Origin: a virus
Length of the DNA stretch: 64,000 bases
IMG/VR virus record: IMGVR_UViG_3300025012_000045
Span: 36,075-100,074 of that record
Direction: 5' to 3' (one strand)
Shown: positions 29,226-52,838 of the stretch, piece after piece
How the letters are laid out: every line of letters begins with the position of its first letter
Position numbering within the stretch: the stretch's first letter is position 1
Notes under the pieces: model-generated
Seen by the model: only the letters and a program-made list of their open reading frames with translations
Database searches by the model: none
What the model was told of the DNA's origin: nothing
Position numbers and translations under genes: made by a program

Positions 29226-30467
29226 ATGGAAATACCAGAAACTACATTTATATATACTTTATCTGATCCAAGAAACAATAATGTAAGATATGTGGGTAAA
29301 ACAGATAGGATTAATAAAAGATTGTGGTATCATATAACACCCACTAAACTAAATAAAAATACTCATAAGAATAATTGGATCAAGAAATTATTAAAGGAGA
29401 ATATAAAACCAGATATTAAGGTTATTGATAAAGTTCCATATAAAGAATGGAAATATTGGGAAACATATTGGATTTCGCAAATGAAGTCATGGGGATTTAA
29501 TCTAACCAATTCAACCAGTGGGGGTGATGGTTTCGGGTCTGGGAAAGACAATCCGATGTATGGGAAGAAAAGACCAGACTTATTAGCAATGAATAAAAGC
29601 GATAATCATCCAGCCAAAGGGGCAAAAAGAAGTGATGAATATAAAGAAAATTTAAGTAAAGTACAATCTAAAATATTATTTAAACAATATACTATAGACG
29701 GTGAATTTATAAAACAATGGAAAGGATTTACTAGAAGTGGCCTGGAGTTAAACATATGTGGTAGTGACATTGCTAGATGTTGTTATGGGGAAAGAAAAAG
29801 CGCAGGAGGATTTCAATGGTGTCTTATTGGGGATGAAGATAAAATAATTGAAAATTATGATCCTATTTTGTATAAATTAAAAAAAGTTATTCAATATGAT
29901 TTAGAAGGAAGTTTCATAAAAGAATGGGATTCAATAATAGAAGCAAAGGAGAGATTAGGAAACCATGTTAATATTTGTGCTGTTGCATCTGGTAAGAGAG
30001 GAACTGCTGGTGGTTATCAATGGAGATATAAAGAAAATGATGATTTTTCTTTAAAAATAGAACCGATAAAATATAAAATAATTTCTAATAAAGCAAAACC
30101 AATAATACAGTATGATTTAAATGGCAATTTTATTAAAGAGTGGCCAAGTATAGAAAAGGCGCAAAAGGAACTTTATATTCATAGCAATTGCATCCGTGCA
30201 GTTTGTTATGGAAGATCTAAAACTATTGGCGGATTTATTTGGAAGTTTAAAGGGGATGAATTAAAATTAAAAGACCATGTAAACTTAAATTTTAAACCTA
30301 TAGTACAATATGATTTAAAAGGTAATAAAATTAAAGAATGGAATTCTATTAAAGAGGCAGCAAATAAATTTGATGTTAGTCATTCTTGTATTAGTACTGC
30401 TATAAGTGGATATAGAGGAAAAAAGAACGCTGCTGGATTTGTTTGGAAGTTTAAAAATAAAATTTAA
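29226..30467 (+). CDS. GIY-YIG homing endonuclease with NUMOD repeats
   Basis: 413 residues. The N-terminal ~95 residues are GIY-YIG (FIYTLSDPRNNNVRYVGKT, H of LWYHITP, E of WKYWETYWI). NPMYGKKRP is a NUMOD3-type DNA-binding segment. Four NUMOD1-type repeats follow, each with (I/K)QYDL.G.FIKEW.SI.EA and AGGF.W(K/R). It sits directly upstream of the intein-containing glycosyltransferase gene. Confidence 0.85.
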   Translation: MEIPETTFIYTLSDPRNNNVRYVGKTDRINKRLWYHITPTKLNKNTHKNNWIKKLLKENIKPDIKVIDKVPYKEWKYWETYWISQMKSWGFNLTNSTSGGDGFGSGKDNPMYGKKRPDLLAMNKSDNHPAKGAKRSDEYKENLSKVQSKILFKQYTIDGEFIKQWKGFTRSGLELNICGSDIARCCYGERKSAGGFQWCLIGDEDKIIENYDPILYKLKKVIQYDLEGSFIKEWDSIIEAKERLGNHVNICAVASGKRGTAGGYQWRYKENDDFSLKIEPIKYKIISNKAKPIIQYDLNGNFIKEWPSIEKAQKELYIHSNCIRAVCYGRSKTIGGFIWKFKGDELKLKDHVNLNFKPIVQYDLKGNKIKEWNSIKEAANKFDVSHSCISTAISGYRGKKNAAGFVWKFKNKI

Positions 30468-36675: not shown

Positions 36676-36834
36676 ATGGATAAAGAATCAATTGAACCAT
36701 TTCAAGATGTTAAATGTAAAAATTGTAATTGGGTGGGAAAAGAAAATGAATTAGAAGAATATACGTTTGATGATGATAGATATTCTGAATTTTATTGTCC
36801 AGAATGTGATACAAAATATAATTTTGATGAATAA
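36676..36834 (+). CDS. Zinc-ribbon small protein
   Basis: 52 residues. CKNCNWVGKENEL, then FYCPECDTKYNF, gives two CxxC pairs 30 residues apart. Overlaps the next gene by 8 nt. Confidence 0.6.
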   Translation: MDKESIEPFQDVKCKNCNWVGKENELEEYTFDDDRYSEFYCPECDTKYNFDE

Positions 36835-37000
36835 TAAAACAGGTAGAAAGAAATTACCAGATATTGAGAAAATGCCAAAAATAGGCATTTCTATTAGTAG
36901 AGAAAATTATGACCATCTTAAAAAAGAAGATGAATTACGTTCAAGAATTATTAATAGGTTATTAACAAAATATTTTAAAAATAAATATAAAAAAGTGTAA
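36827..37000 (+). CDS. Ribbon-helix-helix-like protein
   Basis: 57 residues from ATG 36827. Frame is open upstream, inside the zinc-ribbon gene. KIGISISRENYDHLKKE, then RSRIINRLLTKYFKNK, has the RHH strand-helix-helix order. Likely a small DNA-binding protein. Confidence 0.55.
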   Translation: MNNKTGRKKLPDIEKMPKIGISISRENYDHLKKEDELRSRIINRLLTKYFKNKYKKV

Positions 37001-37013
37001 CTTTTTCTTTTTT
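36990..37013 (+). terminator. Possible terminator
   Basis: AAAAAGT (36990-36996) and ACTTTTT (37000-37006) form a 7-bp A/T stem with a 3-nt loop, followed by CTTTTTT. It includes the stop codon of the RHH gene. Confidence 0.4.
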
Positions 37014-37036
37014 CTGACTATTTATATAGAAAAGAG
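37007..37036 (+). promoter_or_regulatory. Palindrome with late motif in loop (before HNH gene)
   Basis: CTTTTTTCT (37007-37015) pairs with AGAAAAGAG (37028-37036), one mismatch, around a 12-nt loop GACTATTTATAT that contains TATTTATA (37019-37026). The stem ends at the ATG of the HNH gene, so the RNA hairpin would cover the start region. Confidence 0.55.
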
Positions 37037-37750
37037 ATGAAAAAAATAAAATGGAATTATGAAACAGCAAAGAAAGAATCTTTAAAATATAAATCAAGAG
37101 GAGAATTTTATTATAATAAACAAGGAGCATATAAACGAGCGTTAATAAACGGATGGTTAAATGAGTTTTTTCCAAAAAAAATACCAGAAGGGTATGGAAA
37201 ATGTAGTAATAAGGATTGTCAGTGTCCAGTGAAGTTGATTTCTGAATTTTATACGTTTAAAAATAAGAATGGCAAAATAAAAAGAAGGTCAGAGTGTAAA
37301 ATATGTAGTAGGAAAAAAAGAACTGGAATACCAGAAGATCATAGAAAGTGTCTAATATGTAAAGAGATTAAATTGATAAGTGATTTTGATAGAAATAATG
37401 TAAAATGTAATAAATGTCATGAAAATAGTATTGATTATAGAATAATTGCTAATTTGAGGACAAGATTATGGCAGTTATTAAAAGAAAAAAACAAATGTGC
37501 AAGCACTATGGAGTTAATAGATTGTACTGTTGAATTTTTAAAACAATATTTGGAAAAATTTTTTTATGATGGTATGAGTTGGAAAAATTATGGAAAATAT
37601 TGGCATGTTGATCATATTATTCCTTGTATATCATTTGATTTAACTGATCCTGAACAACAAAAAAAATGTTTTCATTGGACAAATTTACAACCATTAACTG
37701 TGAAACATAATATGGAAAAAGGTTCAAAGTTGAATTGGAGTAAATCTTAA
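37037..37750 (+). CDS. HNH homing endonuclease
   Basis: 237 residues. The N-terminus has SRGEFYYNKQGAYKRALING, a phage DNA-binding segment. A cysteine-rich zinc region follows (CSNKDCQCP, CKICSRKK, CLICKE, CNKCHE). The HNH is WKNYGKYWHVDHIIPCISF with NLQPLTVKHN. It shares its C-terminal nuclease with 20741, 55067 and 60189 but not its N-terminal half. Confidence 0.8.
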   Translation: MKKIKWNYETAKKESLKYKSRGEFYYNKQGAYKRALINGWLNEFFPKKIPEGYGKCSNKDCQCPVKLISEFYTFKNKNGKIKRRSECKICSRKKRTGIPEDHRKCLICKEIKLISDFDRNNVKCNKCHENSIDYRIIANLRTRLWQLLKEKNKCASTMELIDCTVEFLKQYLEKFFYDGMSWKNYGKYWHVDHIIPCISFDLTDPEQQKKCFHWTNLQPLTVKHNMEKGSKLNWSKS

Positions 37751-37768
37751 TTAATTATATTTTAAAAT

Positions 37769-38539
37769 ATGAAAGATAATAAAATTAAAATTTTAACAAC
37801 AACATATAATAGCGGTAAATACTTTGATTTATGCATGAATTCAATATTATCTCAAAAATATAATAATTTTATATGGTGTATAATTGATGATTGTTCAATA
37901 GATAATACATTTGATAAAATACCTAATAAAAAAAATATTATTAAAATGAGAAATAATATTCATAATGGTGGAGCTTTGCCAAATCTTCATAATATGTATT
38001 TAAATTATTGTGAATCAGATGATATATCAATAGTATGCGATGGAGATGATTGGTTAGTAAATAAAAATGTTTTATCTTATATAAATGATTTTTATAATAA
38101 ATATAACTGCATGATGATGTATGGTCAATGTAGGTGGTATAATCCAGAATCTCAATTTAAAAGATTTGAAGAAAAGGGTTTGGCATATCCAATATCTCAA
38201 GAACAATTTAAAAATTTAAGAAATAGTTTAAGTTGGCCATTCTCTCATATAAGAACATTTAGAGCAAAAGCATATCATGAAATTGAAAAACAAGACCCTA
38301 ATTATGATTGTTTAAAAGATGAAAATGGGAAAATGTATACAATAGGCGCTGGTGATTTTGCTGTATTTCTTCCTGTTGCTGAAATTGTTGGATATGAAAA
38401 TATAAAATACAATGACAAAGTTTTATATGTCTATAACAGAGAAACTAAATTAAATGAAGATAAAGTTTATTCTTTTGATTTACAAACTAAAAATCATTTG
38501 GAAGTAAATTCTAAACCTAAATTCAAACAAATATTTTAA
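37769..38539 (+). CDS. Family 2-type glycosyltransferase
   Basis: 256 residues. GT-A fold: KILTTTYNSGKYFDLCMNSI, IIDDCSIDNTF, and the DxD region IVCDGDDWL. It transfers a nucleotide-sugar residue. It is part of the sugar-modification genes spread from 30 to 62 kb. Confidence 0.75.
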   Translation: MKDNKIKILTTTYNSGKYFDLCMNSILSQKYNNFIWCIIDDCSIDNTFDKIPNKKNIIKMRNNIHNGGALPNLHNMYLNYCESDDISIVCDGDDWLVNKNVLSYINDFYNKYNCMMMYGQCRWYNPESQFKRFEEKGLAYPISQEQFKNLRNSLSWPFSHIRTFRAKAYHEIEKQDPNYDCLKDENGKMYTIGAGDFAVFLPVAEIVGYENIKYNDKVLYVYNRETKLNEDKVYSFDLQTKNHLEVNSKPKFKQIF

Positions 38540-38541
38540 TT

Positions 38542-38919
38542 ATGAAAAAATCTAAAAATAAAAAAAGTGAATATAGTAATAAAAGGGGCCCAAATTGTAA
38601 ACAAATATTGTGTCCAGAAATTATAAAACAATATAACATTAATGCCGAAGAAGAATTGTTGAAAATTTTCTATTCAGAAATGAATGAATCAGAACAAGAT
38701 TTTTATAAAAGAATAAAAGATACGCTTAACATAGAATCCTTTATGAAAGCAACTAATAATAATTTAGAAATGTTGTTTAATTATATGTATTCACCAACAA
38801 TTGGAATTAGATTATCAAATATTGCTGTTGGTAAATTTATAAAAGATAATTATGATGATGATTTCTATTATAGACGAGAAGTGTTACGTTGTGAAGAATA
38901 TAAAAAACATAAAAATTAA
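38542..38919 (+). CDS. Hypothetical protein
   Basis: 125 residues, basic N-terminus (MKKSKNKKSEYSNKRG) and a helical body (EEELLKIFYSEMNESEQDF). It starts 2 nt after the glycosyltransferase stop. Not recognised. Confidence 0.55.
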   Translation: MKKSKNKKSEYSNKRGPNCKQILCPEIIKQYNINAEEELLKIFYSEMNESEQDFYKRIKDTLNIESFMKATNNNLEMLFNYMYSPTIGIRLSNIAVGKFIKDNYDDDFYYRREVLRCEEYKKHKN

Positions 38920-38932
38920 AAATGAAATAATT

Positions 38933-39175
38933 ATGGAAGAAAAAAAATGGTTTATATCAAAAGATAGTGAAACACGATGGGTTAAAGTTTTTATAAACAA
39001 AAATATTAAATGGGATCATTGTGGTACGCATTTAGTTGTTTCTATGGATAGTGATTTAAATGAGGCACATAAATTAAATGATGTAAGGGTAGAATCGATA
39101 GATATTAAAAACTTTTTTAATACTAAAGAAGAATCACAAATGGAAATAATAAGGCGTGAAAGATTTGAAAAATAA
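38933..39175 (+). CDS. Hypothetical protein
   Basis: 80 residues from ATG 38933 (AATTATG). The frame is open upstream but overlaps the previous gene. EKKWFISKDSETRWVKVFIN is beta-rich. Unknown. Confidence 0.5.
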   Translation: MEEKKWFISKDSETRWVKVFINKNIKWDHCGTHLVVSMDSDLNEAHKLNDVRVESIDIKNFFNTKEESQMEIIRRERFEK

Positions 39176-39188
39176 TTTATATAATGAA

Positions 39189-40403
39189 ATGAAAAAATTT
39201 AAAACCATAGAAGAAGAATTGTCCAGAATGAAAGAATTATCTGGCATGAAGGAAGATCAAAAATTAATTGATAAATCTGGATTTGCAAGAATAAATAGAA
39301 TGTTATGGGGAGGAGTTTCATCAATTAATTCTGTTGGAATATTAACAGCAGAAAATCCTCAAGGGCAACAGTTATCTCCAGAAGAAAATAATAAAAGAAT
39401 GAAAGATTTAAAAACTGCTTTAGGGACTTATGGGTTTATTGATGTTAGAGGAAAATTTAGGACTAAAGAAGGTAATAATTTAATTGAAAATTCTCTTATT
39501 ATTCCTAATTTACCTAAAGAAACATTACTCTGGTTACAAAAAAAATTTGAACAAGAATCTGTTATTTATGGAGAAAGAAAAGATAAAAATACATTTTTAT
39601 TTGAATATATTAAAAACGGTAATATTGAAGATAAACAAGAAGTCATTTTATCAAAGATGGAAGGTAATGAAGAATATTATTCATATTTACCAAAAACCAG
39701 TAAAAAAGATGGAGAAAAAATAAAATATGAAAGAAGTTTCAGAATACCATTTTTTGATAAAGTTGGTTATAGAAATCCCACAGGTCAAGGAACGTGGGAA
39801 ATAATTGAATATTATGGATTCCTGGGTATAAATTTAGATAATTTACCGAAAGATAATAAGGAAATTAATTTATTGTTAAATGAAATTAAAAAAAATGAGA
39901 AAGAATTGTTGATAGAAGGATTAATTCCAAAATATTATTGGGTAAGAAGAGGCATAATAAATAATTATATTAAAACAATAAAAGACATTATAGAACAAAT
40001 TAATAATAGTTATTTTATTGATATTGAGAATTTACCAAAGGGTAATGAAAAAGTATTAAACATATTAAAGGAAATAAGAGAAAATAAAAAAGAGTTAATT
40101 ATAAATAATTCACTTTCTGATGATTATATTGTTAGAAAATATAGAATAAAAGAATTAAAAAATGAATTGAAAGATTTGATTAAAGAAAATAAAATAGTTA
40201 AATTAACAGAAGAACAGTTGGAAGAAATAACAAAAGATCAAGAAGTATATAATTATTTTTTAACATATGATAAACCATTTATATATTCAAGCCCAGAAGT
40301 TCATTATAAAGAATCACTAAATAAGAGTAAAGAATTGTTTAATCATATTCCAAAAAATTTTAAAAAATTTTGTTTTGAGGAGTATGAAAGACAAAAAAAT
40401 TAA
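39189..40403 (+). CDS. DUF3293-like protein with RMKEL peptide, long form 1
   Basis: 404 residues. Start ATG 39189 is chosen by alignment with the paralog at 45600. N-terminal peptide KFKTIEEELSRMKELSGM. The core GILTAENPQGQQLSPEENNK, then LGTYGFIDVRGKFRTKEG, ENSLIIPNL and KKFEQESVIYG resembles the DUF3293 pattern. The C-terminal half is helical with the ending KPFIYSSPEVHY. It is ~80% identical to 45600-46820. Function unknown. Confidence 0.6.
   Translation: MKKFKTIEEELSRMKELSGMKEDQKLIDKSGFARINRMLWGGVSSINSVGILTAENPQGQQLSPEENNKRMKDLKTALGTYGFIDVRGKFRTKEGNNLIENSLIIPNLPKETLLWLQKKFEQESVIYGERKDKNTFLFEYIKNGNIEDKQEVILSKMEGNEEYYSYLPKTSKKDGEKIKYERSFRIPFFDKVGYRNPTGQGTWEIIEYYGFLGINLDNLPKDNKEINLLLNEIKKNEKELLIEGLIPKYYWVRRGIINNYIKTIKDIIEQINNSYFIDIENLPKGNEKVLNILKEIRENKKELIINNSLSDDYIVRKYRIKELKNELKDLIKENKIVKLTEEQLEEITKDQEVYNYFLTYDKPFIYSSPEVHYKESLNKSKELFNHIPKNFKKFCFEEYERQKN
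39280..39830 (+). repeat. Duplicated DNA, copy 1 (with 45700-46250)
   Basis: This stretch and 45700-46250 are nearly identical at the nucleotide level, including silent sites, showing a recent duplication or gene conversion between the two long DUF3293-like genes. The outer parts of the genes have diverged more. Confidence 0.7.
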
Positions 40404-40415
40404 ATTATTATAAAA

Positions 40416-40673
40416 ATGAAAGAAACAATAGAACAAAAAAAATATAGAATACTAAGAGTAAAATATGAAGAATTTATGAAAAATTATAAAAATGAACATG
40501 AATTGTGTCCTAACTGTGGTGCCAAAGAACATAGTAGTACTTTAGTTGGTTATGTATTTAATCATGATGAACCAGAAAAATATAGAGATTTAAATAGATG
40601 TCAATGTTTGAAATGTGGAAATATACATACGACTCATGAAAGAATAAAAAAAATATTAAATAATATAAATTAA
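40416..40673 (+). CDS. Zinc-ribbon protein
   Basis: 85 residues. CPNCGAKEHSSTLVGYVFN and CQCLKCGNIHTTHER give two CxxC knuckles about 30 residues apart, with a helical N-terminus. Role unknown. Confidence 0.65.
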   Translation: MKETIEQKKYRILRVKYEEFMKNYKNEHELCPNCGAKEHSSTLVGYVFNHDEPEKYRDLNRCQCLKCGNIHTTHERIKKILNNIN

Positions 40674-40700
40674 AAAATAATAAGAATTTTTTTAAGTGTT

Positions 40701-40736
40701 TTTTCTTTTTCTAACTATTTATATAGAAAAAGAAAA
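40701..40736 (+). promoter_or_regulatory. Perfect palindrome with late motif in loop
   Basis: TTTTCTTTTTCT (40701-40712) pairs perfectly with AGAAAAAGAAAA (40725-40736) around a 12-nt loop AACTATTTATAT carrying TATTTATA (40716-40723). It lies directly before ATG 40739. Same loop, different stem, as at 37007. Confidence 0.65.
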
Positions 40737-40738
40737 TT

Positions 40739-41587
40739 ATGAAAAACACAAAAGAAAAACAACAATGGGAAGAATTAAAAAATATTATACAAGAGAAGAA
40801 AGAAAAGAAGCCAAAAGAAGATGGAATAAAACTTACTATTGGAAAAACAAAGAAAAACTCGATAAACAATCAAGAGAAAGATATTGGAGAAATAAAAAAA
40901 ACAGAAGAAATAACGAAAGATAGATTATACCAAATATATAAAATAGAAAAGAAACAATTGAAAGAGATTGCTAGTTTTTTTAAAGTACCAATTTATACTA
41001 TTAGAAATAGATTAATAAAATATGATATAATACCTAATAAAACCTATACCCATGTCAAGCCAAGAATTGGAGATAAATTTAATAGATGGAAAGTTATAGA
41101 GTATTGTGGTTATGAGGACGGTAATGAATATTGTTTATGTGAATGTGATTGTGGGACCATTAAAAAGGTAGAAATATGGACATTAAAGCATGGAATAACA
41201 AAAAGTTGTGGATGTTATCATGCTGAAATATTAAAAAAAATTAACTGGACGGGGTATAAAGAAATAAGTGGAAAATATTGGGGTTCACTACAATCATCTG
41301 GTAGGCGTAAACGTTTAGAATTTAATATTAATATAAAATATTGTTGGGGGTTATATATAAAACAAGATAGAAAATGTGCTTTAAGTGGATTACCCATAGA
41401 ATTTGAAACATTAAAAAGACGAAAAAAAGATAAATTTATTGCCTCATTAGATAGAATCGACAGTAAAAAAGGATATATTGTTGGTAATGTTCAATGGGTC
41501 GTTAAAGAAATAAATTATATGAAAAGAATATTAACCGATGAAAAGTTTATATTTTTTTGTAAAAAAATAGCTAAAAATAATAAATAA
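40739..41587 (+). CDS. HNH endonuclease with CDCG/SCGC zinc region
   Basis: 282 residues if started at 40739. Residues ~55-90 include a helix-turn-helix (QLKEIASFFKVPIYTIRNRL). A zinc-binding core (CLCECDCGTIKKVEIW, SCGCYH) and an HNH-type end (CALSGLPIEF, ASLDRIDSKKGYIVGNVQWV) follow. The first ~55 residues are low-complexity and overlap a conserved small ORF in another frame (40765-40923), so the true start or a frameshift fusion is uncertain. Confidence 0.7.
   Translation: MKNTKEKQQWEELKNIIQEKKEKKPKEDGIKLTIGKTKKNSINNQEKDIGEIKKTEEITKDRLYQIYKIEKKQLKEIASFFKVPIYTIRNRLIKYDIIPNKTYTHVKPRIGDKFNRWKVIEYCGYEDGNEYCLCECDCGTIKKVEIWTLKHGITKSCGCYHAEILKKINWTGYKEISGKYWGSLQSSGRRKRLEFNINIKYCWGLYIKQDRKCALSGLPIEFETLKRRKKDKFIASLDRIDSKKGYIVGNVQWVVKEINYMKRILTDEKFIFFCKKIAKNNK
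40765..40923 (+). CDS. MGRxxKY small basic protein overlapping the HNH frame
   Basis: 52 residues, MGRIKKYYTREERKEAKRRW, ending RERYWRNKKNRRNNER. A homolog lies in the same place inside the HNH gene at 55067 (MGRKRKYFTEEEQLTAKRER). K/R and Y/F exchanges show that this frame, rather than the overlapping one, is kept at the protein level. It may be a separate DNA-binding peptide or the first exon-like part of a frameshifted endonuclease. Confidence 0.5.
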   Translation: MGRIKKYYTREERKEAKRRWNKTYYWKNKEKLDKQSRERYWRNKKNRRNNER

Positions 41588-41605
41588 AATAAAAGTAAAA
41601 TAATT

Positions 41606-42475
41606 ATGAAAAAAAATGTTAAATTAATAATATTCTCAAAGAATAGAGCATTACAATTATTTACTCTATTATCATCACTTGATAAAAACAGTACAATATT
41701 TAAAGATATTTATATTCTTTATAAATTTACAAATGAAGAATATAAACAAGGATATGATAAACTTAAAACTCAAACTTATGAAAATATTGACAAAGATAAA
41801 TCAATATATTTTTATGAAGAAAATGAAGAAGGGTTTAAATCTAACCTAAATGAACTACTTCAATTAAATAGAGAAAAATATGATCATATTTGTTTTATGG
41901 TTGATGACCAGATAATGTACCAGAAACTTGAAAATGAAAATGAAATATTTGACTTAATAACAGATGATGTTTTTTGTTTTTCTTTAAGATTGGGACTAAA
42001 TATTAAATATAGACATTTAACTGATAAATATTTTAATTTACTTAATTATGAGGAATCAGATAATGGAAAATTTATAAAATGGAATTGGAGAGAACAGGGA
42101 CAACAATCAGATTTTGGATATTTTTTTTCTGTTGATTCGCATATTTTTAAATATAAAGATATTGAGAAATTAATTAAACCGTTAAATTATAATAATCCAA
42201 ATACTTTTGAAGCATCAATGCATTTACAATATAATTTTCCAAAGAATTATATGTGTAGTTATAATAATTCAAAAACAGTTAGTTTACCTATTAACAGAGT
42301 GAATGATGTATTTTTAAATAGATTTGGGGTAAAAGTCAATATAACAGAAAAAGAATTAAATGATAGATTTTTAAATGGGGAAATAATTGATTATGAAAAT
42401 ATGCAATATGAAAATATTAATGCATGCCACGTTGAAATCCCTGTTTTATTTAAAAAAGAATTTGAACATGCATAA
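41606..42475 (+). CDS. Glycosyltransferase-like protein (GT-A type)
   Basis: 289 residues. KLIIFSKNRALQLFTLLSSL is the N-terminal strand-helix of a GT-A enzyme. DHICFMVDDQIMY supplies the acidic motif. GQQSDFGYFFSVDSHIF is a later conserved region. Likely acts on a host-surface or particle glycan. Confidence 0.6.
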   Translation: MKKNVKLIIFSKNRALQLFTLLSSLDKNSTIFKDIYILYKFTNEEYKQGYDKLKTQTYENIDKDKSIYFYEENEEGFKSNLNELLQLNREKYDHICFMVDDQIMYQKLENENEIFDLITDDVFCFSLRLGLNIKYRHLTDKYFNLLNYEESDNGKFIKWNWREQGQQSDFGYFFSVDSHIFKYKDIEKLIKPLNYNNPNTFEASMHLQYNFPKNYMCSYNNSKTVSLPINRVNDVFLNRFGVKVNITEKELNDRFLNGEIIDYENMQYENINACHVEIPVLFKKEFEHA

Positions 42476-42734
42476 TAAAAAAGTTGAAAAATATTGGCAA
42501 GATAATAAAGAAAAAATTTTAACACATTGGTTATTATATAAAAAATATGGTGATAGGGGTTTTTATGTAACATCAGAAAATATTGCTGAAATTGTTGATT
42601 TAATAGCTAACGGAGAAATTCATTTCAATGACTCAAAACTTTTATTAGAAGAATTAGATAAAGAAAGATTAAGAATAGTAAAATTTCATTATGATTGTAT
42701 AGAAAAATTATATCCAAATTTATATAAAAAATAA
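42468..42734 (+). CDS. Hypothetical protein
   Basis: 88 residues from ATG 42468, overlapping the glycosyltransferase by 8 nt. Helical (KVEKYWQDNKEKILTHWLLY). Its stop is followed immediately by the GTG of the methyltransferase. Confidence 0.5.
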   Translation: MHNKKVEKYWQDNKEKILTHWLLYKKYGDRGFYVTSENIAEIVDLIANGEIHFNDSKLLLEELDKERLRIVKFHYDCIEKLYPNLYKK

Positions 42735-43400
42735 GTGAGTAAAGAATATTATTATACAGAAAAAAGTCAAATTGGTAATTTATCTGAAATATATTTAGAT
42801 TATTTTGGATATAAAACAAATGGTTATTTTGTTGAAGTGGGTGGATATGACGGAACCCAATACAGCAATACATATGGTTTGGCTAAAGTTTGGTGGCACG
42901 GACTTATTTTTGAACCGCAACCTTATATTTTTGATACTTGTGTTAAAAATTATAAAAATTATCCAAATATAAAAATAGAAAAATGTTGTATTGGAAGTTA
43001 TGATGGAAATATTGATTTATATATTGGTGGCCCCTTAACTACCACTAGTAAAGAAATGGTTGAGGTATATAAGACATTAGATTTTTCAAAGGGATTATTC
43101 ATTGGTGATATTTATCCTGTTAAATCTACAATTTATAAATTAGATAATATGTTAGAAAAATATAATTGGCCCATTAGTTTTGATGTCCTTGTTATTGATA
43201 CTGAAGGAACAGAATTAGAAGTTTTAACAGGGTTTTCAATAGATAAATGGTTGCCAAGATTAGTGATAATAGAAATGGATATAAAAAATAAAAATGAATT
43301 TATCAGAATAAAAAGTGAAAAAATAAATGAAATTATGAAAGAAAATAAATATAAAAAAATTCATGAAGATTCAATTAATAGTATATTTGTTTTAAATTAA
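42735..43400 (+). CDS. FkbM-family methyltransferase
   Basis: 221 residues with a GTG start abutting the previous stop. SAM motif I is GYFVEVGGYDGTQYSNTYGL, followed by LIFEPQPYIF, VLVIDTEGTELEVLTGF and LVIIEMD. FkbM enzymes O-methylate sugars or related metabolites. It fits the neighbouring glycosyltransferases. Confidence 0.8.
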   Translation: MSKEYYYTEKSQIGNLSEIYLDYFGYKTNGYFVEVGGYDGTQYSNTYGLAKVWWHGLIFEPQPYIFDTCVKNYKNYPNIKIEKCCIGSYDGNIDLYIGGPLTTTSKEMVEVYKTLDFSKGLFIGDIYPVKSTIYKLDNMLEKYNWPISFDVLVIDTEGTELEVLTGFSIDKWLPRLVIIEMDIKNKNEFIRIKSEKINEIMKENKYKKIHEDSINSIFVLN

Positions 43401-43422
43401 AAAATAGATTAATTTATTTAAG

Positions 43423-44280
43423 ATGAAAAGAACACCATTAAAAATTTGTGATTCAGCATTCGCACACACTTTTACAAGTAGTTGGGATAATAAATCAAAA
43501 TATATTGAATGGGTTAGAGATTTTGATAAAAATGCAGATAATGATTTAATATTTTTTACAGATCAAAATATATTTAATTTTTATAACTACCGATCAAAAA
43601 TTAAAATTGGGTGGCTTATTGAGCCTGTCAGCGTAAACCCCTATTCTTATTCTTTTGTTCGAGAAAATTATCAAAAAGAAGGATTCTTCGATTATATATT
43701 AACTTATGATAAAGAATTAATAGAATTAAATAAAAATATTAATAGTGATATTTTCCAGTTTTTTTCTCATGGCGGTTCTTGGATAGAAGAAGAAGATTTT
43801 AAAATTTATGATAAAAATAAAATGGTATCGATAATTGCAAGCGGTAAAAACCAGACTAAAGGGCACCGCCTTAGACATAGCAGTATCGAATATTATAAAC
43901 AAAAACTTGATGTGATGGGTCATGGATACAGAAGTATTGAAAGTAAAAAAGAAGGTTTATGTGATTATAGATATTCTGTTATTATTGAGAATATAAAACA
44001 AAATGATTATTTTACAGAAAAATTAATTGATTGTTTATCAACAGGAACAGTTTCCATATATTGGGGAACTGAAAATATTGGAAATTATTTTGATGAAAGG
44101 GGAATAATTAAATTTGACAATATATCTGAATTGGGGTATATATTAGATAATATTGTATCAGAAAAGGACTATTTATCAAGAATGGATGCAATTAAACATA
44201 ATCTGGAAGAGTGCAAGAAATATAGAATCGCAGAAGATTATATATTTGAAAACTTTTTAGTTAAAAATAATTTAATATGA
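43423..44280 (+). CDS. Family 10-type (fucosyltransferase-like) glycosyltransferase
   Basis: 285 residues. The C-terminal part has the GT10 donor-site pattern: YRYSVIIENIKQNDYFTEKLIDCL, STGTVSIYWGTENIGNYF, GIIKFDNI. WLIEPVSVNP occurs in the N-terminal half. GT10 enzymes transfer fucose or similar deoxy-sugars from GDP. Here the donor could be a phage-made sugar (see 58363 and 61049). Confidence 0.75.
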   Translation: MKRTPLKICDSAFAHTFTSSWDNKSKYIEWVRDFDKNADNDLIFFTDQNIFNFYNYRSKIKIGWLIEPVSVNPYSYSFVRENYQKEGFFDYILTYDKELIELNKNINSDIFQFFSHGGSWIEEEDFKIYDKNKMVSIIASGKNQTKGHRLRHSSIEYYKQKLDVMGHGYRSIESKKEGLCDYRYSVIIENIKQNDYFTEKLIDCLSTGTVSIYWGTENIGNYFDERGIIKFDNISELGYILDNIVSEKDYLSRMDAIKHNLEECKKYRIAEDYIFENFLVKNNLI

Positions 44281-44495
44281 AAAATAAATGTGAACATTGT
44301 AATAGAAATGCAGATTATAAGGTGAGTTCATTTCATTCTACTTATGATTGTTTATTTAAACCAAATCAAAAAGACAGATTACCAACACCCGGTAAGGTTG
44401 AAATGGTAATAGGTTATTGTTGTGGTCATTGTTTGCCAGGGCCAAAAGAACCATATAAAACAGATTATTGTTATGTTTTTGTTGAAAAATTGTAG
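44277..44495 (+). CDS. Small Cys-rich protein
   Basis: 72 residues. CEHCNRNADYKV, YDCLFK, GYCCGHCLPG. Zinc-binding likely. ATGA-coupled to the glycosyltransferase. Confidence 0.6.
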   Translation: MKNKCEHCNRNADYKVSSFHSTYDCLFKPNQKDRLPTPGKVEMVIGYCCGHCLPGPKEPYKTDYCYVFVEKL

Positions 44496-44501
44496 TACCT
44501 A

Positions 44502-44532
44502 TTGACTATTTAAATTATTTTGTTTATTTTTG
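44502..44532 (+). promoter_or_regulatory. Host-type (-33/-7) promoter, near-leaderless
   Basis: TTGAC at 44502, 20-nt spacer, TATTTTTG at 44525-44532. ATG 44539 lies only 6 nt after the -7 box, so the mRNA should be leaderless or nearly so. Confidence 0.7.
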
Positions 44533-44538
44533 TATTAT

Positions 44539-45294
44539 ATGAAAGAACATAAAAGTTTTGAAGAATATGTTACTAGATTTAGAGAATTGGCAGGTCTTAA
44601 ACCTGATGATAACCCAATTGATTTTTTACCAAAACAAATTCCTGCTGAAGAATATTTAACAGAAGATAAAATAAAAGAGTTAAATGAAAGTAGTTTAACT
44701 AGAATACGACAACATATATTAAATCACGATATTACAACAATAAGTGCATGGAGAGATAAAAATGAAAATTGTGTAGAATATAGAGAAGGTGCAGAGAGAA
44801 ATAAAATTTTTACAAGAGAAGAAAAAAATGAAAGGAATTTGGAATTAAGTTCTGCATTATTGAAAAAGAGATATGGTGTTACATATATTAGAGGAATATC
44901 ACAAGAAGGAAAACAGATAGTTCAGGAAAATAGTTATCTCGTTGTTAATTTAAATAATGATGAAAAATTTATTGATAATGTAAAGAAATTGGGGCAATAT
45001 TATTGTCAGGATTCTGTACTAATAAAAGAAAAAAATAATGAAAATGCATATTTAATTGGAACAAATAATTTTCATAGATTGGGACTTAATAAAAAACAAA
45101 TATTAGGTAAATTTCATCCAGGAATAGAAAATGAACTCATGTCAAAAATACATGGAAGGCCATTTTATTTTGGTGAGAATGTAGATAGAGAGGGGCCAAT
45201 ACAATTTGAAATATATGATGAATTTAGTATTGGTGCAAGACAAGCAGTTACAAAAACATCAGAAAAAATTTTAAATGAAATATTTAAAAAATGA
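44539..45294 (+). CDS. RMKEL-family protein, short form 1
   Basis: 251 residues. N-terminal peptide HKSFEEYVTRFRELAGL. The core reads SSLTRIRQHILNHDITTISA, ENSYLVVNLNNDEKFIDNV, LGQYYCQDSVLIKE, AYLIGTNN and IHGRPFYF. It is a paralog of 46838-47524 and a distant relative of the long DUF3293-like pair (shared RI...L..H.i..isa, ENS.lv.nl, Q.SVLI). Behind an early promoter. Unknown function. Confidence 0.6.
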   Translation: MKEHKSFEEYVTRFRELAGLKPDDNPIDFLPKQIPAEEYLTEDKIKELNESSLTRIRQHILNHDITTISAWRDKNENCVEYREGAERNKIFTREEKNERNLELSSALLKKRYGVTYIRGISQEGKQIVQENSYLVVNLNNDEKFIDNVKKLGQYYCQDSVLIKEKNNENAYLIGTNNFHRLGLNKKQILGKFHPGIENELMSKIHGRPFYFGENVDREGPIQFEIYDEFSIGARQAVTKTSEKILNEIFKK

Positions 45295-45590
45295 AGAAAT
45301 ATAAAAGTTTTGAAGAATATGTTATTGATACTTTAAAATTGATAATTCCAATAACTACTGGATTTAAATCAAGTCAAATATCATATGTGTTTGATGGTAA
45401 GGTTAATTATTTTACATATTATAAAAATACTAATAAATTATGGATTAATTACAGAGAAATATATTGTGGATTTGTAGATGATCTTGGAATTTTTAGTATA
45501 GAGATATTTAGAAAAATAATAAGAAATAAAATAAAGGAATATTTAAAATTAAATAACAAAGTAAAAGTTTTAAGAAACTCAAATTTTTAA
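45291..45590 (+). CDS. Hypothetical protein with related N-terminal peptide
   Basis: 99 residues, ATGA-coupled to the previous gene. The N-terminus KKYKSFEEYVIDTLKLI copies the peptide of its neighbour, but the body (VFDGKVNYFTYYKNTNKLW) is unrelated. It shows the peptide attached to a new domain. Confidence 0.55.
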   Translation: MKKYKSFEEYVIDTLKLIIPITTGFKSSQISYVFDGKVNYFTYYKNTNKLWINYREIYCGFVDDLGIFSIEIFRKIIRNKIKEYLKLNNKVKVLRNSNF

Positions 45591-45599
45591 TAAATAAAA

Positions 45600-46820
45600 A
45601 TGAATAAATTTAAAACATTAAATGAAGAAATAGACAGAATAAAAGAATTATCTGGAATTGAGAAAAAAGAATCAACTCAATTAATTGATGAATCTGGATT
45701 TGCCAGAATAAATAGAATGTTATGGGGGGGAGTCCCATCAATTAATTCTGTTGGAATATTAACAGCAGAAAATCCCCAAGGGCAACAGTTATCTCCAGAA
45801 GAAAATAATAAAAGAATGAAAGATTTAAAAACTACTTTGGGGACTTATGGGTTTATTGATGTTAAGGGAAAATTTAGGACTAAAGAAGGTAATAATTTAA
45901 TTGAAAATTCTCTTATTATTCCTAATTTACCCAAAGAAACATTATTCTGGTTACAAAAAAAATTTGAACAAGAATCTGTTATTTATGGGAAAAGAAAAGA
46001 TAAAAATACATTTTTATTTGAATATATTAAAAACGGTAATACTGAAGATAAACAAGAGGTTATTTTATCAAAGATGGAAGGTAATGAAGAATATTATTCG
46101 TATTTACCAAAAACCAGTAAAAAAGATGGAGAAAAAATAAAATATGAAAGAAGTTTCAGAATACCATTTTTTGATAAAATTGGTTATAGAAAATCCACTA
46201 ATCAAGGAACGTGGGAAATAACTGAACATTATGGATTTTTAGATATGAATTTAGAAGATTTACCAAAAGACAATAAAGAAATAAATTTATTATTAAATGA
46301 AATTAAAAAAAATGAGAAAGAATTATTGATAGAAGGATTAATTTCAAAATATTATTGGGTAAGGAGAGGTATAATAAATGAATCTATTAAGATAATAAAA
46401 GAAATTTTGGATCAACTTGAAAATGGATTTATTAATATTGATATTGATAATTTACCAAAAGGTAATGAGGAAGTATTAATATTATTAAAAAATATAAGAG
46501 AAAATAAAAAAAGATTGATTGTAAATGATTCATTATCCAATGATTATATTGGAAAAAAACATGAAATAAATGAATCAATCAGAAGATTAAAAGAACTTAT
46601 AAAAGAAAATAAGATATTTAAATTAACAGAAGAACAATTGGAAGAAATAACAAAAGACCAGGAAATATATAATTATTTTTTGATAAATGATAAACCGTTT
46701 ATCCATGCAACTGCCGAACAACATTATAATCAATCAAAAGAAAAAAGTTTGGAATTATTCAATCACATACCAAAAAATTTTAAACAATTTTGTTTTGAAG
46801 AATATGAACGTAATAAATAA
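45600..46820 (+). CDS. DUF3293-like protein with RMKEL peptide, long form 2
   Basis: 406 residues, close paralog of 39189-40403. Peptide NKFKTLNEEIDRIKELSGI. The DUF3293-like core is nearly identical, including TAENPQGQQLSPEENNK. The C-terminal helical half is more diverged and ends KPFIHATAEQHYNQS. Unknown function. Confidence 0.6.
   Translation: MNKFKTLNEEIDRIKELSGIEKKESTQLIDESGFARINRMLWGGVPSINSVGILTAENPQGQQLSPEENNKRMKDLKTTLGTYGFIDVKGKFRTKEGNNLIENSLIIPNLPKETLFWLQKKFEQESVIYGKRKDKNTFLFEYIKNGNTEDKQEVILSKMEGNEEYYSYLPKTSKKDGEKIKYERSFRIPFFDKIGYRKSTNQGTWEITEHYGFLDMNLEDLPKDNKEINLLLNEIKKNEKELLIEGLISKYYWVRRGIINESIKIIKEILDQLENGFINIDIDNLPKGNEEVLILLKNIRENKKRLIVNDSLSNDYIGKKHEINESIRRLKELIKENKIFKLTEEQLEEITKDQEIYNYFLINDKPFIHATAEQHYNQSKEKSLELFNHIPKNFKQFCFEEYERNK
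45700..46250 (+). repeat. Duplicated DNA, copy 2 (with 39280-39830)
   Basis: Nearly identical nucleotide sequence to 39280-39830. See that entry. Confidence 0.7.
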
Positions 46821-46837
46821 TATGAAATTTTAAAAAA

Positions 46838-47524
46838 ATGAATAAATACAAAACATTAAATGAAGAAATAAATAGAATAAGAGAATTATCTGGATTAGAT
46901 ACAACTATTGAAGAAAGTTCACTTAGCAGAATATTTGAACATTTATCAAAACACGATATTGCCATGATGACAGCATTTAGAAAAGAAAATATAGACTGTC
47001 TTGATGAAGAAAAAAATACAAAAGGAATTATTACAAAAGAAGATAATTTAGTAAGAAATAAAAAATTACAAGTATCATTATTATCTTTAGATTATAGTGT
47101 TACTGCAATAGATGGTTCTGTAATAAAAAATTTTGGTAAAGAAAATGAAAGGGAATTTAAAGAAAATAGTTTTTTAGTTGTTAATTTATATGATGATGAA
47201 AAATTTATTAATAACATAATAAAACTTGGACAATATTTTTGTCAGGACAATGTTTTAATAAAAGAAAAGGAAAAAGAAAATGCTTATTTAATTGGAACTA
47301 ACAATTCAAACGGTCCAGGATTAAATCAAAGATATGATTTGGGAAAATATAAACCAGGAATAGAATCACAATTTATGTCAAAAATAAAAGGAAGACCGTT
47401 TTATTTTGAACAATATGATAATTTTAATATTGGGGCCAAACTTATAATAACTAATGAATCTAAAGAGATTTTAGAAGAGATAGAAAAATATAATATTAAT
47501 GATATAAAATTAAAAAAATTATGA
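46838..47524 (+). CDS. RMKEL-family protein, short form 2
   Basis: 228 residues. Peptide NKYKTLNEEINRIRELSGL, then SSLSRIFEHLSKHDIAMMTA, ENSFLVVNLYDDEKFINNI, LGQYFCQDNVLIKE, AYLIGTNN, IKGRPFYFEQY. Paralog of 44539-45294 (about 50% identical by eye). ATGA-coupled to the next gene. Confidence 0.6.
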   Translation: MNKYKTLNEEINRIRELSGLDTTIEESSLSRIFEHLSKHDIAMMTAFRKENIDCLDEEKNTKGIITKEDNLVRNKKLQVSLLSLDYSVTAIDGSVIKNFGKENEREFKENSFLVVNLYDDEKFINNIIKLGQYFCQDNVLIKEKEKENAYLIGTNNSNGPGLNQRYDLGKYKPGIESQFMSKIKGRPFYFEQYDNFNIGAKLIITNESKEILEEIEKYNINDIKLKKL

Positions 47525-47967
47525 AAAATAAAAAAATAGATGTTATTGAATTAACTGAATATCAACCTTCAGAATTTAATCCAAAACTCAAAGATTTTGA
47601 GATATTTGGAAAACACGGACTAATGAACGGAAGAATGCTTTCTGGGTCAAAATCAGGTTATCATGATAAGTACCCAGATCATTTAGTTATTTTTAATGCA
47701 AACATTGTTACAAAATCAAAGGGAAAAGTGATTTATGGTGATATTGATATTAATAAAGATATTGATACACTTAAAAAAATATCAGAAGAATTGGGAGAAC
47801 ATTTATATGTTTTATATGAAATGGATTGCAGGTTTGATACAGAGAAAGATGATATTAAAGAATTAATTAAAAATGCACTATGGTCAACAGATCCAGATTT
47901 TAAACCAAGTAGATTGGGTGAATATTGGACTTTTGATAAAAATGGAAAACCAAAAAGAAAAAAATAA
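47521..47967 (+). CDS. Conserved-looking hypothetical protein
   Basis: 148 residues. GLMNGRMLSGSKSGYHDKYP, DHLVIFNANIVTKSKGKVIY, GDIDINKDIDTLKKISEELG and LYVLYEMDCRFDTE look like a well-folded alpha/beta protein. It follows the short DUF3293-like paralog. Family function not known to me. Confidence 0.6.
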   Translation: MKNKKIDVIELTEYQPSEFNPKLKDFEIFGKHGLMNGRMLSGSKSGYHDKYPDHLVIFNANIVTKSKGKVIYGDIDINKDIDTLKKISEELGEHLYVLYEMDCRFDTEKDDIKELIKNALWSTDPDFKPSRLGEYWTFDKNGKPKRKK

Positions 47968-47972
47968 ATATT

Positions 47973-48176
47973 ATGAAAATACAGACAAAAATAATGGTAA
48001 GAGATGTTGGGCATCCAGATTATGAAATTCAATTGGAATTGGATTTCTTATATGTACCCCCACAACAAATTAGTAAAAGAGTAACATTCAATCTTGAAGG
48101 TAAAGAATTTGCATTTTATAATATGGAAGATGTTTTTACCATTCATGGTATTACAAGATATGTATATTTTAGATGA
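47973..48176 (+). CDS. Small beta-rich protein
   Basis: 67 residues, KIQTKIMVRDVGHPDYEIQL, with alternating hydrophobics throughout. Unknown. Confidence 0.5.
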   Translation: MKIQTKIMVRDVGHPDYEIQLELDFLYVPPQQISKRVTFNLEGKEFAFYNMEDVFTIHGITRYVYFR

Positions 48177-48229
48177 TAAATTGTATGAGATGGTTGAGAA
48201 TATTTAAGTTTTTAAATTAAATTTATCAG

Positions 48230-48547
48230 ATGAAAACAGAAACAATAATAATCGGGAAATTAACTTTGCAGATGTTAAAGGATATGGGCCCAGGTACTAT
48301 ATTTGCAAAAGGAGAAATATTAAATGAGGAATTGCCAACACCGATGGTATCACCATCTGAATATCCAAATTTAAAATTATGCTGGGTAGCAAAAAGAGGA
48401 GGATATTGGGATTGGACAATTTATATGGCTAAAGCAGAACAGGGATATGAATATGCTGAAACTAATGGAGACAAAACATATTCAGAAAATAATATACGTT
48501 TTCTTGTTCCTTGTGATGATGAAGCATTTAAAATGTTTAGAAAATAA
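48230..48547 (+). CDS. Hypothetical protein
   Basis: 105 residues. LTLQMLKDMGPGTIFAKGEI, KLCWVAKRGGYWDWTIYMAK. The GpGtiFa.G pattern is common in small phage proteins of unknown function. Confidence 0.55.
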   Translation: MKTETIIIGKLTLQMLKDMGPGTIFAKGEILNEELPTPMVSPSEYPNLKLCWVAKRGGYWDWTIYMAKAEQGYEYAETNGDKTYSENNIRFLVPCDDEAFKMFRK

Positions 48548-48567
48548 AATTATTAAAACCAAAACAA

Positions 48568-48870
48568 ATGTATCAAATAGTTGAAACTACGCATCAGCAG
48601 AAAATGACAATGTACATGAAATGTACAAAGAAAAAATTAGCAGAAATGTTGATTGCATGCAATGATGCATTAGATTTCCAAAATAAAAATAAAGAATTTC
48701 CAAATGAGCAATCCTATAAAACATTATCTGGATCATGTCATTGTTGCCCAGTATGTGATGGAAAAGGAATAGTTCCAAATGGATTTTATGCATCAGTATG
48801 TGGTTTTGGTACAACAACCTCAACTATCCCTGAAACATGCAGAAGTTGTAGTGGAAATGGATTTATTTAG
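48568..48870 (+). CDS. CxxCxGxG zinc-finger protein (soluble)
   Basis: 100 residues. A helical N-terminus is followed by CHCCPVCDGKG and CRSCSGNG, the DnaJ-type motifs seen in the exported pair at 11196 and 11502, without a signal sequence. Possibly an anti-regulator or chaperone-like binding protein. Confidence 0.65.
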   Translation: MYQIVETTHQQKMTMYMKCTKKKLAEMLIACNDALDFQNKNKEFPNEQSYKTLSGSCHCCPVCDGKGIVPNGFYASVCGFGTTTSTIPETCRSCSGNGFI

Positions 48871-48879
48871 GAATAAAAA

Positions 48880-49410
48880 ATGTTAAATAGAAAAATAATT
48901 TCAAGTAAAAAAGATTGGGGAACACCGTTAAAGTATGTCAATGCGGTTAAAGAAGTTTTTGACAATATAATAGAGTTGGACCCATGTTCCAATGAATATA
49001 GTATTGTTAATGCAAAAAAAGAAATACAACCACCAGAAAATGGTTTAGCTATTGATTGGGATTATAAAACAATATATGTTAATCCTCCGTATGGTAGAGA
49101 TAAAAATGTAAAGACAAATATTTCAGATTGGTTAAAAAAGTGTTCCGATAGTTATGAAAAATATAATAATGAGATATTGGCATTAATACCTGTATCAACA
49201 AATACAAAACATTGGAAAGAAAATATATTTAAAAGAGCAAATGGGATTTGTTTTTTAGAAGATACAAGATTGAAATTTTTAAATAAAGGAATAGAAGAAA
49301 AGAAAGGGGCACCGATATCATGTACAATGATTTATTGGGGGAATAATTATAATAAGTTTAAAGAGGTTTTTAGTAAATATGGGAAATGTTTTAAAATAAT
49401 ATTAAAATAA
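48880..49410 (+). CDS. Phage DNA N6-adenine methyltransferase (Dam family)
   Basis: 176 residues. KKDWGTPLKYVNAVKEVFDN, IELDPCSNEYSIVN, and catalytic motif IYVNPPYGR match the phage N-6-adenine methyltransferase family. LIPVSTNTKHW and CFLEDTRLKF follow in the usual order. Methylates phage DNA, probably against restriction. A second methylase follows at 50285. Confidence 0.85.
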   Translation: MLNRKIISSKKDWGTPLKYVNAVKEVFDNIIELDPCSNEYSIVNAKKEIQPPENGLAIDWDYKTIYVNPPYGRDKNVKTNISDWLKKCSDSYEKYNNEILALIPVSTNTKHWKENIFKRANGICFLEDTRLKFLNKGIEEKKGAPISCTMIYWGNNYNKFKEVFSKYGKCFKIILK

Positions 49411-49418
49411 TATTAAAA

Positions 49419-50297
49419 ATGTATCATTGTTGTACTCTTTCAGATTATAATTATCTTTTAAAGGGATTGGTTTTATATGATTCTTTAGAAAAATATACTA
49501 AAGAAGATTTTGTTTTATATTATTTTTGTCTTGATAATGAAACATATAATAAATTAAACGAATTAAATTTAAAACATATTATTCCAATAAATTTAAAAGA
49601 TTTAGAATATGATCATTTAGAATTACAAAACATTAAAAAACAAATAACATACCAAAATTATTGTTTTACTCTTTCTTCTTATTTTTGTTGGTATTTGTTA
49701 GAACATTGTATGTTACAAGATATATTATATATTGATAGTGACATAGTTTTTTATGATAGCTTAAAAAAGATATTTGATACTGTTAAGGATAAAAGTATAG
49801 GACTGATACGTCATCGTCATGTTTCCTATGGGCATTATGTGGGGTACTATAATGTAGGTATTATTTATTTTGATAATAAAGAAGGATTAAAATGCTGTGA
49901 ATTTTGGAAAGATTTAATGTTGAACCCCAACAATGAGTATTCAAAAGAATACGGAACTTGTGGGGACCAGAAATATTTGGAATTATTTGAAAAAAAATTT
50001 GATGGAGTTAAGATTATTGATGAAAATGGGATAGGATATTTTGCGCCATACAATCTAGATTTATATTCGTATGAAAATTTTTCAATAAATGATAAAAAAA
50101 TTATTTGGAATGGAAAAGAAGAAAAAATAATATTCAATCATTTTATTAAATTTAAACCAGATTTTGAAAATGATACCTATGTTCCAGTTGAAACATTGCA
50201 AGAATGGAATAAATTATCTAAAATTAAAGAGGTTGTTGAAATTTATAATGAATATTTTGAATTAAATAAAGAAATAAAAAATAGATGGTTGAACTGA
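49419..50297 (+). CDS. GT8-like glycosyltransferase
   Basis: 292 residues. CTLSDYNYLLKGLVLYDSL at the start, then ILYIDSDIVFYDSLKKIF (DxD), YYNVGIIYFDN and GDQKYLELF, the order expected of retaining GT-A enzymes. It overlaps the DNA methyltransferase by 13 nt. Confidence 0.75.
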   Translation: MYHCCTLSDYNYLLKGLVLYDSLEKYTKEDFVLYYFCLDNETYNKLNELNLKHIIPINLKDLEYDHLELQNIKKQITYQNYCFTLSSYFCWYLLEHCMLQDILYIDSDIVFYDSLKKIFDTVKDKSIGLIRHRHVSYGHYVGYYNVGIIYFDNKEGLKCCEFWKDLMLNPNNEYSKEYGTCGDQKYLELFEKKFDGVKIIDENGIGYFAPYNLDLYSYENFSINDKKIIWNGKEEKIIFNHFIKFKPDFENDTYVPVETLQEWNKLSKIKEVVEIYNEYFELNKEIKNRWLN

Positions 50298-51016
50298 ATA
50301 AAATATATCATGGAGATTGCCTTGATATTATGAAAAATATTCCAGATGATTATATAGATTTAATCACTGTAGATCCGCCATGGGGAGTCAATTTTTGCCA
50401 ATCCAGATTTTATAATGATGATAAACAAAATATTCTTAATATGCAAGAAATATGGCTAAAAGAAATGTATAGAGTTTTAAAAGATAATTGTCATTTATAT
50501 TTATTTACTCCAACTTTGGAAATTGATTCATGGGTATATAATATTAAAAAAATATTTAATTTTAAAAACGTGATTGCATCACAAGTTTTTGTAAACAACA
50601 GATACAATAAAGATAATTTCGGATGGGACCTGCAATTAATATTATATGCATCTAAAAATAAACCCAAAAGATTTAATCAGGTAGATTGGATACCTGCCAG
50701 TGATTCGTGGATTAAAGATAAAAGAAATATTAGTCCAAAGAAATGGACATATAAATATCCATCTTTTATTTCAAATAAAATAATAAGGTCAAATTATAAA
50801 AACGGTTCTGTTAGAAAAAGACAACATCCGAATGAAAAAAATCATGAATTAATTGAAAAATTTATTTTAATGAGTTCAAATAAAGGAGATATTGTTTTAG
50901 ATCCATTTGCTGGATGTTTTTCAACTTGTCTTGCTGCCAAAAATACAGGAAGAAATTATATTGGAATTGAATTAAATAAGGAATATTGTGAAATTGGAGA
51001 AAAAAGATTAAAATGA
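50285..51016 (+). CDS. Beta-class DNA N4/N6 methyltransferase
   Basis: 243 residues. Motif IV VDPPWGV precedes motif I LDPFAGCFSTCLAAK, so the order is beta-class. The N-terminus IYHGDCLDIMKNIPDDYIDL and GIELNKEYCEIGEKRL at the end are typical. DPPW favours adenine or cytosine-N4 methylation. No restriction partner adjoins, so a protective or regulatory role is likely. Confidence 0.85.
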   Translation: MVELNKIYHGDCLDIMKNIPDDYIDLITVDPPWGVNFCQSRFYNDDKQNILNMQEIWLKEMYRVLKDNCHLYLFTPTLEIDSWVYNIKKIFNFKNVIASQVFVNNRYNKDNFGWDLQLILYASKNKPKRFNQVDWIPASDSWIKDKRNISPKKWTYKYPSFISNKIIRSNYKNGSVRKRQHPNEKNHELIEKFILMSSNKGDIVLDPFAGCFSTCLAAKNTGRNYIGIELNKEYCEIGEKRLK

Positions 51017-51168
51017 AACAAAATTTGATTGAAAAAATTGAACGACAATTACTAACTATCTGGTGGGAAGTGGGTAGTAAAACTCACCAGTGCATCGTAG
51101 AGCGGATCATCTTTGAGCGGTTCAGAATAGATGGATGGGACATGGATATAGAAGTAAATTTAAATTAA
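51013..51168 (+). CDS. Small WW-containing protein 1
   Basis: 51 residues, NLIEKIERQLLTIWWEVGSK. ATGA-coupled to the methylase. Homolog of 51627-51788 (LIEKI..QL..IWW...S, ..DGW). Base composition is GC-richer than its surroundings between 51060 and 51140. Confidence 0.55.
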   Translation: MKQNLIEKIERQLLTIWWEVGSKTHQCIVERIIFERFRIDGWDMDIEVNLN

Positions 51169-51180
51169 AAATCAATAAAA

Positions 51181-51788: not shown

Positions 51789-51804
51789 ATTATAAAATAT
51801 AAAA

Positions 51805-52793: not shown

Positions 52794-52807
52794 TTACTAA
52801 GGGGGGA

Positions 52808-52838
52808 TTGATTATTTAGATTATTTTATTTATCTTTG
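52808..52838 (+). promoter_or_regulatory. Host-type (-33/-7) promoter
   Basis: TTG at 52808, 20-nt spacer, TATCTTTG at 52831-52838. It drives the gene at 52892; the leader holds a 4-codon ATG frame. Confidence 0.7.

Follow-up and report, generated by a model that had tools for sequence, protein, structure and literature searches.

The window analysed here, a stretch of 64,000 nucleotides of an uncultured viral record (IMGVR_UViG_3300025012_000045, positions 36,075 to 100,074), contains three plus-strand hairpins, each with the motif TATTTATA in its loop and an HNH open reading frame (ORF) directly downstream. In the first hairpin (37007-37036), arms at 37007-37015 (CTTTTTTCT) and 37028-37036 (AGAAAAGAG) form 9 pairs, including one G-U, around the motif at 37019-37026 (MFE -9.5), and an ATG follows at 37037. 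The second (40701-40736) has 12 pairs between arms at 40701-40712 (TTTTCTTTTTCT) and 40725-40736 (AGAAAAAGAAAA), the motif at 40716-40723 and an MFE of -13.6, with the ATG at 40739. The third (55033-55066) pairs 9 bases of 55033-55041 (AATTTATCG) with 55058-55066 (CGATAAATT), holds the motif at 55044-55051 (MFE -14.5) and is followed by the ATG at 55067; its predicted fold continues through the start codon. Direct reading thus confirmed the hairpins with the motif in the loop that an earlier note on this DNA had placed at 37007, 40701 and 55033. The same note had described the stem sequences as unrelated, which is correct for stem 3 only; this stem is clearly different, whereas stems 1 and 2 are alike, both with a C-interrupted T-tract facing an A-tract. 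The 13-mer ACTATTTATATAG occurs three times in the 100,074-base record, always at the three HNH sites and never in reverse. The shorter ACTATTTATAT alone has four copies in the window, the fourth at 19945; there (19945-20030), an inverted repeat TTGTCC/GGACAA lies further downstream, around an ATG.

Judging from PHROG matches, a putative homing-family endonuclease is encoded directly 3' of each hairpin: an HNH/endonuclease VII-like protein of 237 aa at 37037-37750 (phrog_1035, E 1.1e-7), an HNH protein of 282 aa at 40739-41587 (phrog_3322, E 4.2e-19) and a second HNH/endonuclease VII-like protein of 314 aa at 55067-56011 (phrog_1035, E 6.1e-16), all on the plus strand. A Pfam search with the three proteins gave nothing at E<=0.01. 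Other homing-endonuclease-like genes, at 4506-5939, 20741-21556, 29226-30467, 57553-58140 and 60189-60845, lack a strong hairpin-enclosed TATTTATA.

Two of the three HNH ORFs also contain a conserved small ORF on the same strand but out of frame (52 aa at 40765-40923 and 49 aa at 55093-55242), and a third such case is found in locus L243 of a related phage (from 7779 downward). In all three, the small ORF (49-53 aa) begins 26 nt past the HNH ATG; site 1 is without it. This small basic ORF, of the pattern MGR.K(K/R)Y(Y/F)T..., was found at 50 loci in IMG/VR, mostly as a stand-alone gene of 47-61 aa, several copies of which have a TATTTAT-like motif just upstream, and the HNH parts differ among the HNH ORFs that host it. 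The promoter and hairpin might therefore serve the small ORF instead of the HNH ORF, as its presence at sites 2 and 3 and in L243 and the motif ahead of stand-alone copies would suggest; its absence at site 1 and the many endonucleases that have the hairpin but not the small ORF make this reading unlikely. Where the two overlap, reading of the translations revealed no further ATG ahead of the nuclease part, and either both frames would be translated or a frameshift would join them; counts by codon position did not discriminate between the frames. In locus L342, the small ORF overlaps a GIY-YIG ORF, the latter being open in the same relative frame.

Since the window DNA has only 25% GC, base composition weighs on any hairpin statistic. 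When the flanks were dinucleotide-shuffled 2000 times with the motif held fixed, RNAfold p values were 0.195, 0.027 and 0.0005 for sites 1, 2 and 3, respectively (combined, 0.00025). A stable hairpin covering or abutting the start in read-through RNA was thus found at sites 2 and 3, the former standing out moderately and the latter strongly, while site 1 alone is within chance. Shuffling of the arms gave p values of 0.023, 0.064 and 0.010 (dinucleotide) and of 0.004, 0.020 and 0.006 (mononucleotide) in the same order.

Close counterparts of these sites were scarce. Megablast with 20 kb of the window as the query found nothing in the phage collection, bare 14-mer scans returned mostly chance or coding matches, and single-protein scans yielded no relative with the first HNH protein and five distant ones with the third; the window stems could therefore be compared with L243 only, which differs from site 3 by one G-U change. 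No close relatives of sites 1 and 2 with compensatory changes were found.

The TATTTATA motif and the kinship of the phage

G001, a related record of 91 kb reached through locus L022, has TATTTATA ahead of its genes for the tail tube and the baseplate hub. In other IMG/VR records, ACTATTTATATAGAAA followed by an ATG precedes genes for the portal, the head maturation protease and a connector-type protein. The 13-mer ACTATTTATATAG was present once in each of 50 such records searched, which indicates a looser motif of which it is one variant. Within the window, the region from 28 to 59.4 kb is co-directional on the plus strand and includes several glycosyltransferase genes; here, an ORF of 70 aa or longer follows TATTTATA at the three HNH sites only, which fits late genes embedded in the units of other promoters. 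Taken together, the placement of the motif between the arms at all three sites and ahead of tail genes in a relative is compatible with a late promoter, as far as sequence can tell.

The nearest named relatives, for both the portal protein of locus L168 and the tail tube protein of G001, are T4-type phages of Flavobacterium, Microcystis and Rhodothermus. The phage group hence looks distantly related to T4, and the description of this phage in the earlier note as apparently unrelated needs to be amended accordingly. Its proposal of a different late motif is supported, with TATTTATA here versus TATAAATA in T4 segB and the I-Tev genes, and with TATTTATA or ACTATTTATATAGAAA before tail and head genes in relatives. 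In Flavobacterium phage immuto, TATTTA[TC] was found within 50 nt of 10 of 42 genes versus 8 of 42 on the opposite strand, no clear enrichment; the terL and portal genes of this phage carry it at -25 and -24, respectively.

Start hairpins and selection on pairing in other phages

Among 52 sites with TATTTATA before an ORF, from this record and the related one, we counted seven distinct hairpins in which 11 or more pairs enclose the motif and the MFE is -9 or lower. The genes behind them are four HNH genes, one TnpB gene, one unknown gene and one homing endonuclease gene (L245) whose product, which we take to be Vsr-like, matches DUF559 and homing endonuclease PHROGs. Because the L245 hairpin, formed by CCATTCCTTTTTGTTATA and TATAATAAAAAGGATTTATGG, was missed by an ungapped stem score, this score was dropped in favour of folding. 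The TnpB (OrfB/IS605) gene of a related phage begins in a hairpin around TATTTATA (L243, 2600-2680). The other fetched loci contributed L071 and L256, from two additional nuclease families whose stems are quite different.

A search for nuclease families in 47 phage records revealed many GIY-YIG and HNH starts inside such a hairpin (L434, -26.6; L435, -26.9; L440, -25.6; L455, -25.2; L432, -20.1; L439, -18.9; L441, -17.0), and others, L436, L449 and L450 among them, with the motif and no hairpin. Counting was confined to the 376 of 455 sites that have an in-frame stop upstream. Across all fetched loci, a z of -3 or lower was reached by 10 of 27 endonuclease clusters and by 6 of 201 others, a count that includes families chosen for their hairpins. 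With the latter left out, the family-search loci gave an enclosing hairpin at this threshold in 6 of the 18 motif-bearing endonuclease clusters compared to 1 of 24 non-nuclease clusters (p 0.018), and in 5 of 18 compared to 0 of 24 at z<=-4; a strong hairpin is missing from 12 of these 18 endonuclease clusters. Long hairpins around the motif were also seen before two non-nuclease genes, one near ACTATTTATATAG in L099/L269 (a 328 aa protein of unknown family) and one at 2860 in L339 (HPr-like by eye).

A further sample came from a GIY-YIG family related to T4 SegB, scanned with four proteins and restricted to the best 80 of 411 confirmed loci. Within these, 32 distinct starts have TATTTA[TC], and z was -2.5 or lower in 21 of them and -4 or lower in 15, the remaining 11 not reaching -2.5. 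When the motif was disregarded, z<=-3 was obtained at 39 of 69 distinct starts versus 8 of 116 neighbouring genes of the same loci, with median z values of -3.7 and -0.26, respectively (p 3e-20). Broken down by motif, the starts at this threshold numbered 22 of 34 for TATTTA[TC], 10 of 15 for the ATATATA-type, 5 of 14 for the TATAAATA-type and 2 of 6 for other motifs.

Searching related phages for compensatory changes, we found that the arms change together in endonuclease families. Exchange of the 5' hairpin halves among the 32 GIY-YIG members (best 80 of 411 loci) raised the mean energy from -17.73 to -10.67 kcal/mol, and none of 20000 permutations was as low. The result was the same (0/20000) for the 24 members left after removing similar upstream halves, where the own half was the best partner in 13. 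Across 27 endonuclease clusters, the values were -13.0 real versus -6.5 swapped (0/20000), as against -7.0 versus -6.3 (7/20000) in a control of 80 of the 201 non-nuclease clusters. Within the endoVII-HNH family taken by itself, 31 of 20000 permutations did as well as the real pairing. The alignment of this family (28 distinct rows of equal length, 38 bases; two rows of other length excluded) has 88.3% of 308 cells paired and 36 unpaired, compared with at most 57.5% paired when slid. A first permutation test of paired cells was mildly significant only (66/5000); double-change cells numbered 8 versus 3.8 in shuffled data (2/500), and the covariation score was 0.137 versus 0.104 (0/500). In the L071 family, one stem is common to seven members, and L350 has another stem. 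The selection on structure claimed in the earlier note is thus upheld in other endonuclease families, by half-swap, covariation and neighbour-gene excess; for the window stems, it can be judged against one relative, L243.

These controls bear on the simplest alternative, chance pairing, in which the T-tract upstream of the promoter and the A-rich leaders of AT-rich DNA would give weak T/A stems without any selection. T-runs do occur upstream of other promoter-like sites in the window, site 1 is in the range of the shuffles (p 0.195), site 2 is only moderate, and some non-nuclease genes have such hairpins (the 6 of 201 clusters mentioned above). Site 3 and many unrelated endonucleases, however, lie far beyond their shuffles, and together with the half-swap and neighbour-gene controls this leaves chance as a decidedly improbable explanation of the pattern.

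The strand on which selection acts can be approached through isolated mismatches within stems that were found without any credit for G.U. Here, G.U outnumbered A.C by 47 to 15 (p 3e-5, an optimistic value because related sequences were counted as independent, without a tree), with ratios of 27:4 in the GIY-YIG family and 14:10 in the endoVII-HNH family. As symmetry at the DNA level predicts equality, this excess points to selection on the coding-strand RNA. It is not what would be expected if the palindrome functioned as DNA, for instance as an operator or cruciform at the promoter through which the endonuclease represses itself. A precedent is available in I-TevI, which, according to PMC2988022, binds an operator overlapping its own late promoter; we regard a DNA-level function as highly improbable here, and operator binding could in any case coexist with an RNA switch.

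Another possibility is that the hairpin, with the promoter in its loop, acts as an intrinsic terminator for transcripts arriving from upstream, so that insulation would be transcriptional instead of translational. The stem of the L071 HNH family, GC-rich and followed by TTTTTT, has this appearance. On the other hand, no terminator-like site was detected at the three window sites, with 4 matches elsewhere in 36800-55300, and the 3' arm of the GIY-YIG and endoVII-HNH hairpins enters the coding sequence, which makes a terminator very unlikely. By eye, many endoVII-HNH members (L352-L418) have a terminator-like inverted repeat with a T-run some 20-50 bases ahead of the start, immediately 5' of the start hairpin.

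A proposed switch and its counterparts in known phages

Considering all of the above, the arrangement is very probably the mechanism of T4 I-TevI and SegB and of Aeh1 MobE, a late promoter inside a start-hiding hairpin, operating at free-standing homing endonucleases. In such a switch, TATTTATA, taken as the -10 element of a phage late promoter, would be placed within an RNA hairpin, with the 3' arm lying over or directly next to the endonuclease start. Read-through RNA from upstream genes would contain both arms, fold and hide the start; RNA from the late promoter would begin after the 5' arm, remain unfolded and be translated, and the nuclease would be made only from its own late promoter despite lying inside other transcription units. 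What we infer is the role of the motif as this phage's late promoter, the precise position of the RNA start, the exclusion of ribosomes and the late timing.

In read-through RNA, the predicted cost of opening positions -12 to +6 was 5.3, 6.5 and 13.0 kcal/mol at sites 1, 2 and 3, and it fell to about 0.1 kcal/mol in RNA modelled from 5 bases past the motif; in the model, the fold was lost in the late transcript lacking the 5' arm. For four further promoters in the window, the corresponding values were 2.6-7.1 kcal/mol in read-through RNA and 0.3-3.1 in the late-start model, so that the costs at sites 1 and 2 are within the range of one control. The T4-type logic suggested in the earlier note therefore gains support, at the level of sequence and modelling, from the motif before late-type genes, the half-swap results, the G.U excess and the modelled opening.

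The L245 endonuclease gene, with its hairpin, is flanked by genes for the tail tube and the baseplate hub, the former of which carries a TATTTATA of its own. The gain there cannot be a plain early/late switch, which raises the question of what the hairpin really protects, and dependence on the own promoter is a safer statement than an early/late switch.

The principle itself is already known. In T4 segB and I-TevI, I-TevII and I-TevIII, a late promoter lies within a start-hiding hairpin and the late RNA lacks the 5' arm (PMC2988022); PMC2988022 and PMC3014915 describe the same design for these four genes and for Aeh1 mobE, and, in the passages considered, report the switch for T-even phages and Aeh1 only. 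T4 segB, folded as a positive control, showed this design (-19.4 to -25.5), and GIY-YIG proteins of the L440 type are about 39% identical to T4 SegB. In contrast to segB and the I-Tev genes, the genes described here are HNH genes among glycosyltransferase-type genes, in a distant uncultured phage. The window also differs from the I-Tev intron endonucleases in that no Rfam family, introns included, matched within it at threshold. Aeh1 mobE, of an Aeromonas phage, is likewise a free-standing HNH homing endonuclease gene with a hairpin over its start; it is embedded in a ribonucleotide reductase gene and its promoter sequence differs from that of the window, where the HNH genes lie between other genes. 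PMC3014915 also lists the T4 genes e, soc and 49 as non-homing late genes with an inhibitory start hairpin. Gene 49 is endonuclease VII, to whose family two of the window genes were assigned. Each of these three is a single T4 host gene; the present record, by contrast, has 8 endonuclease VII-type matches, as expected of mobile copies. In the open-access literature, we found no description of the arrangement elsewhere.

What is new here is the breadth, plus the covariation and strand evidence. We lean towards the view that a start-hiding hairpin with a late promoter is a general licence, repeatedly acquired by free-standing homing endonucleases of many unrelated families and adjusted on each occasion to the late promoter in use by the phage concerned; the late motifs cited for such adjustment are TATTTATA here and, among relatives within one GIY-YIG family, the ATATATA-type and the TATAAATA-type. 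Arms that change together in many uncultured phages, with several late motifs and nuclease families, would imply strong and repeated selection on the timing of a selfish nuclease. Late promoter motifs, and hence late sigma specificity, would also become readable in uncultured phages from their sequence.

By eye, the sequences upstream of L526, L531, L536, L540-L542 and L568 resemble tRNA 3' ends, a setting like that of T4 segB, which sits inside the tRNA cluster.
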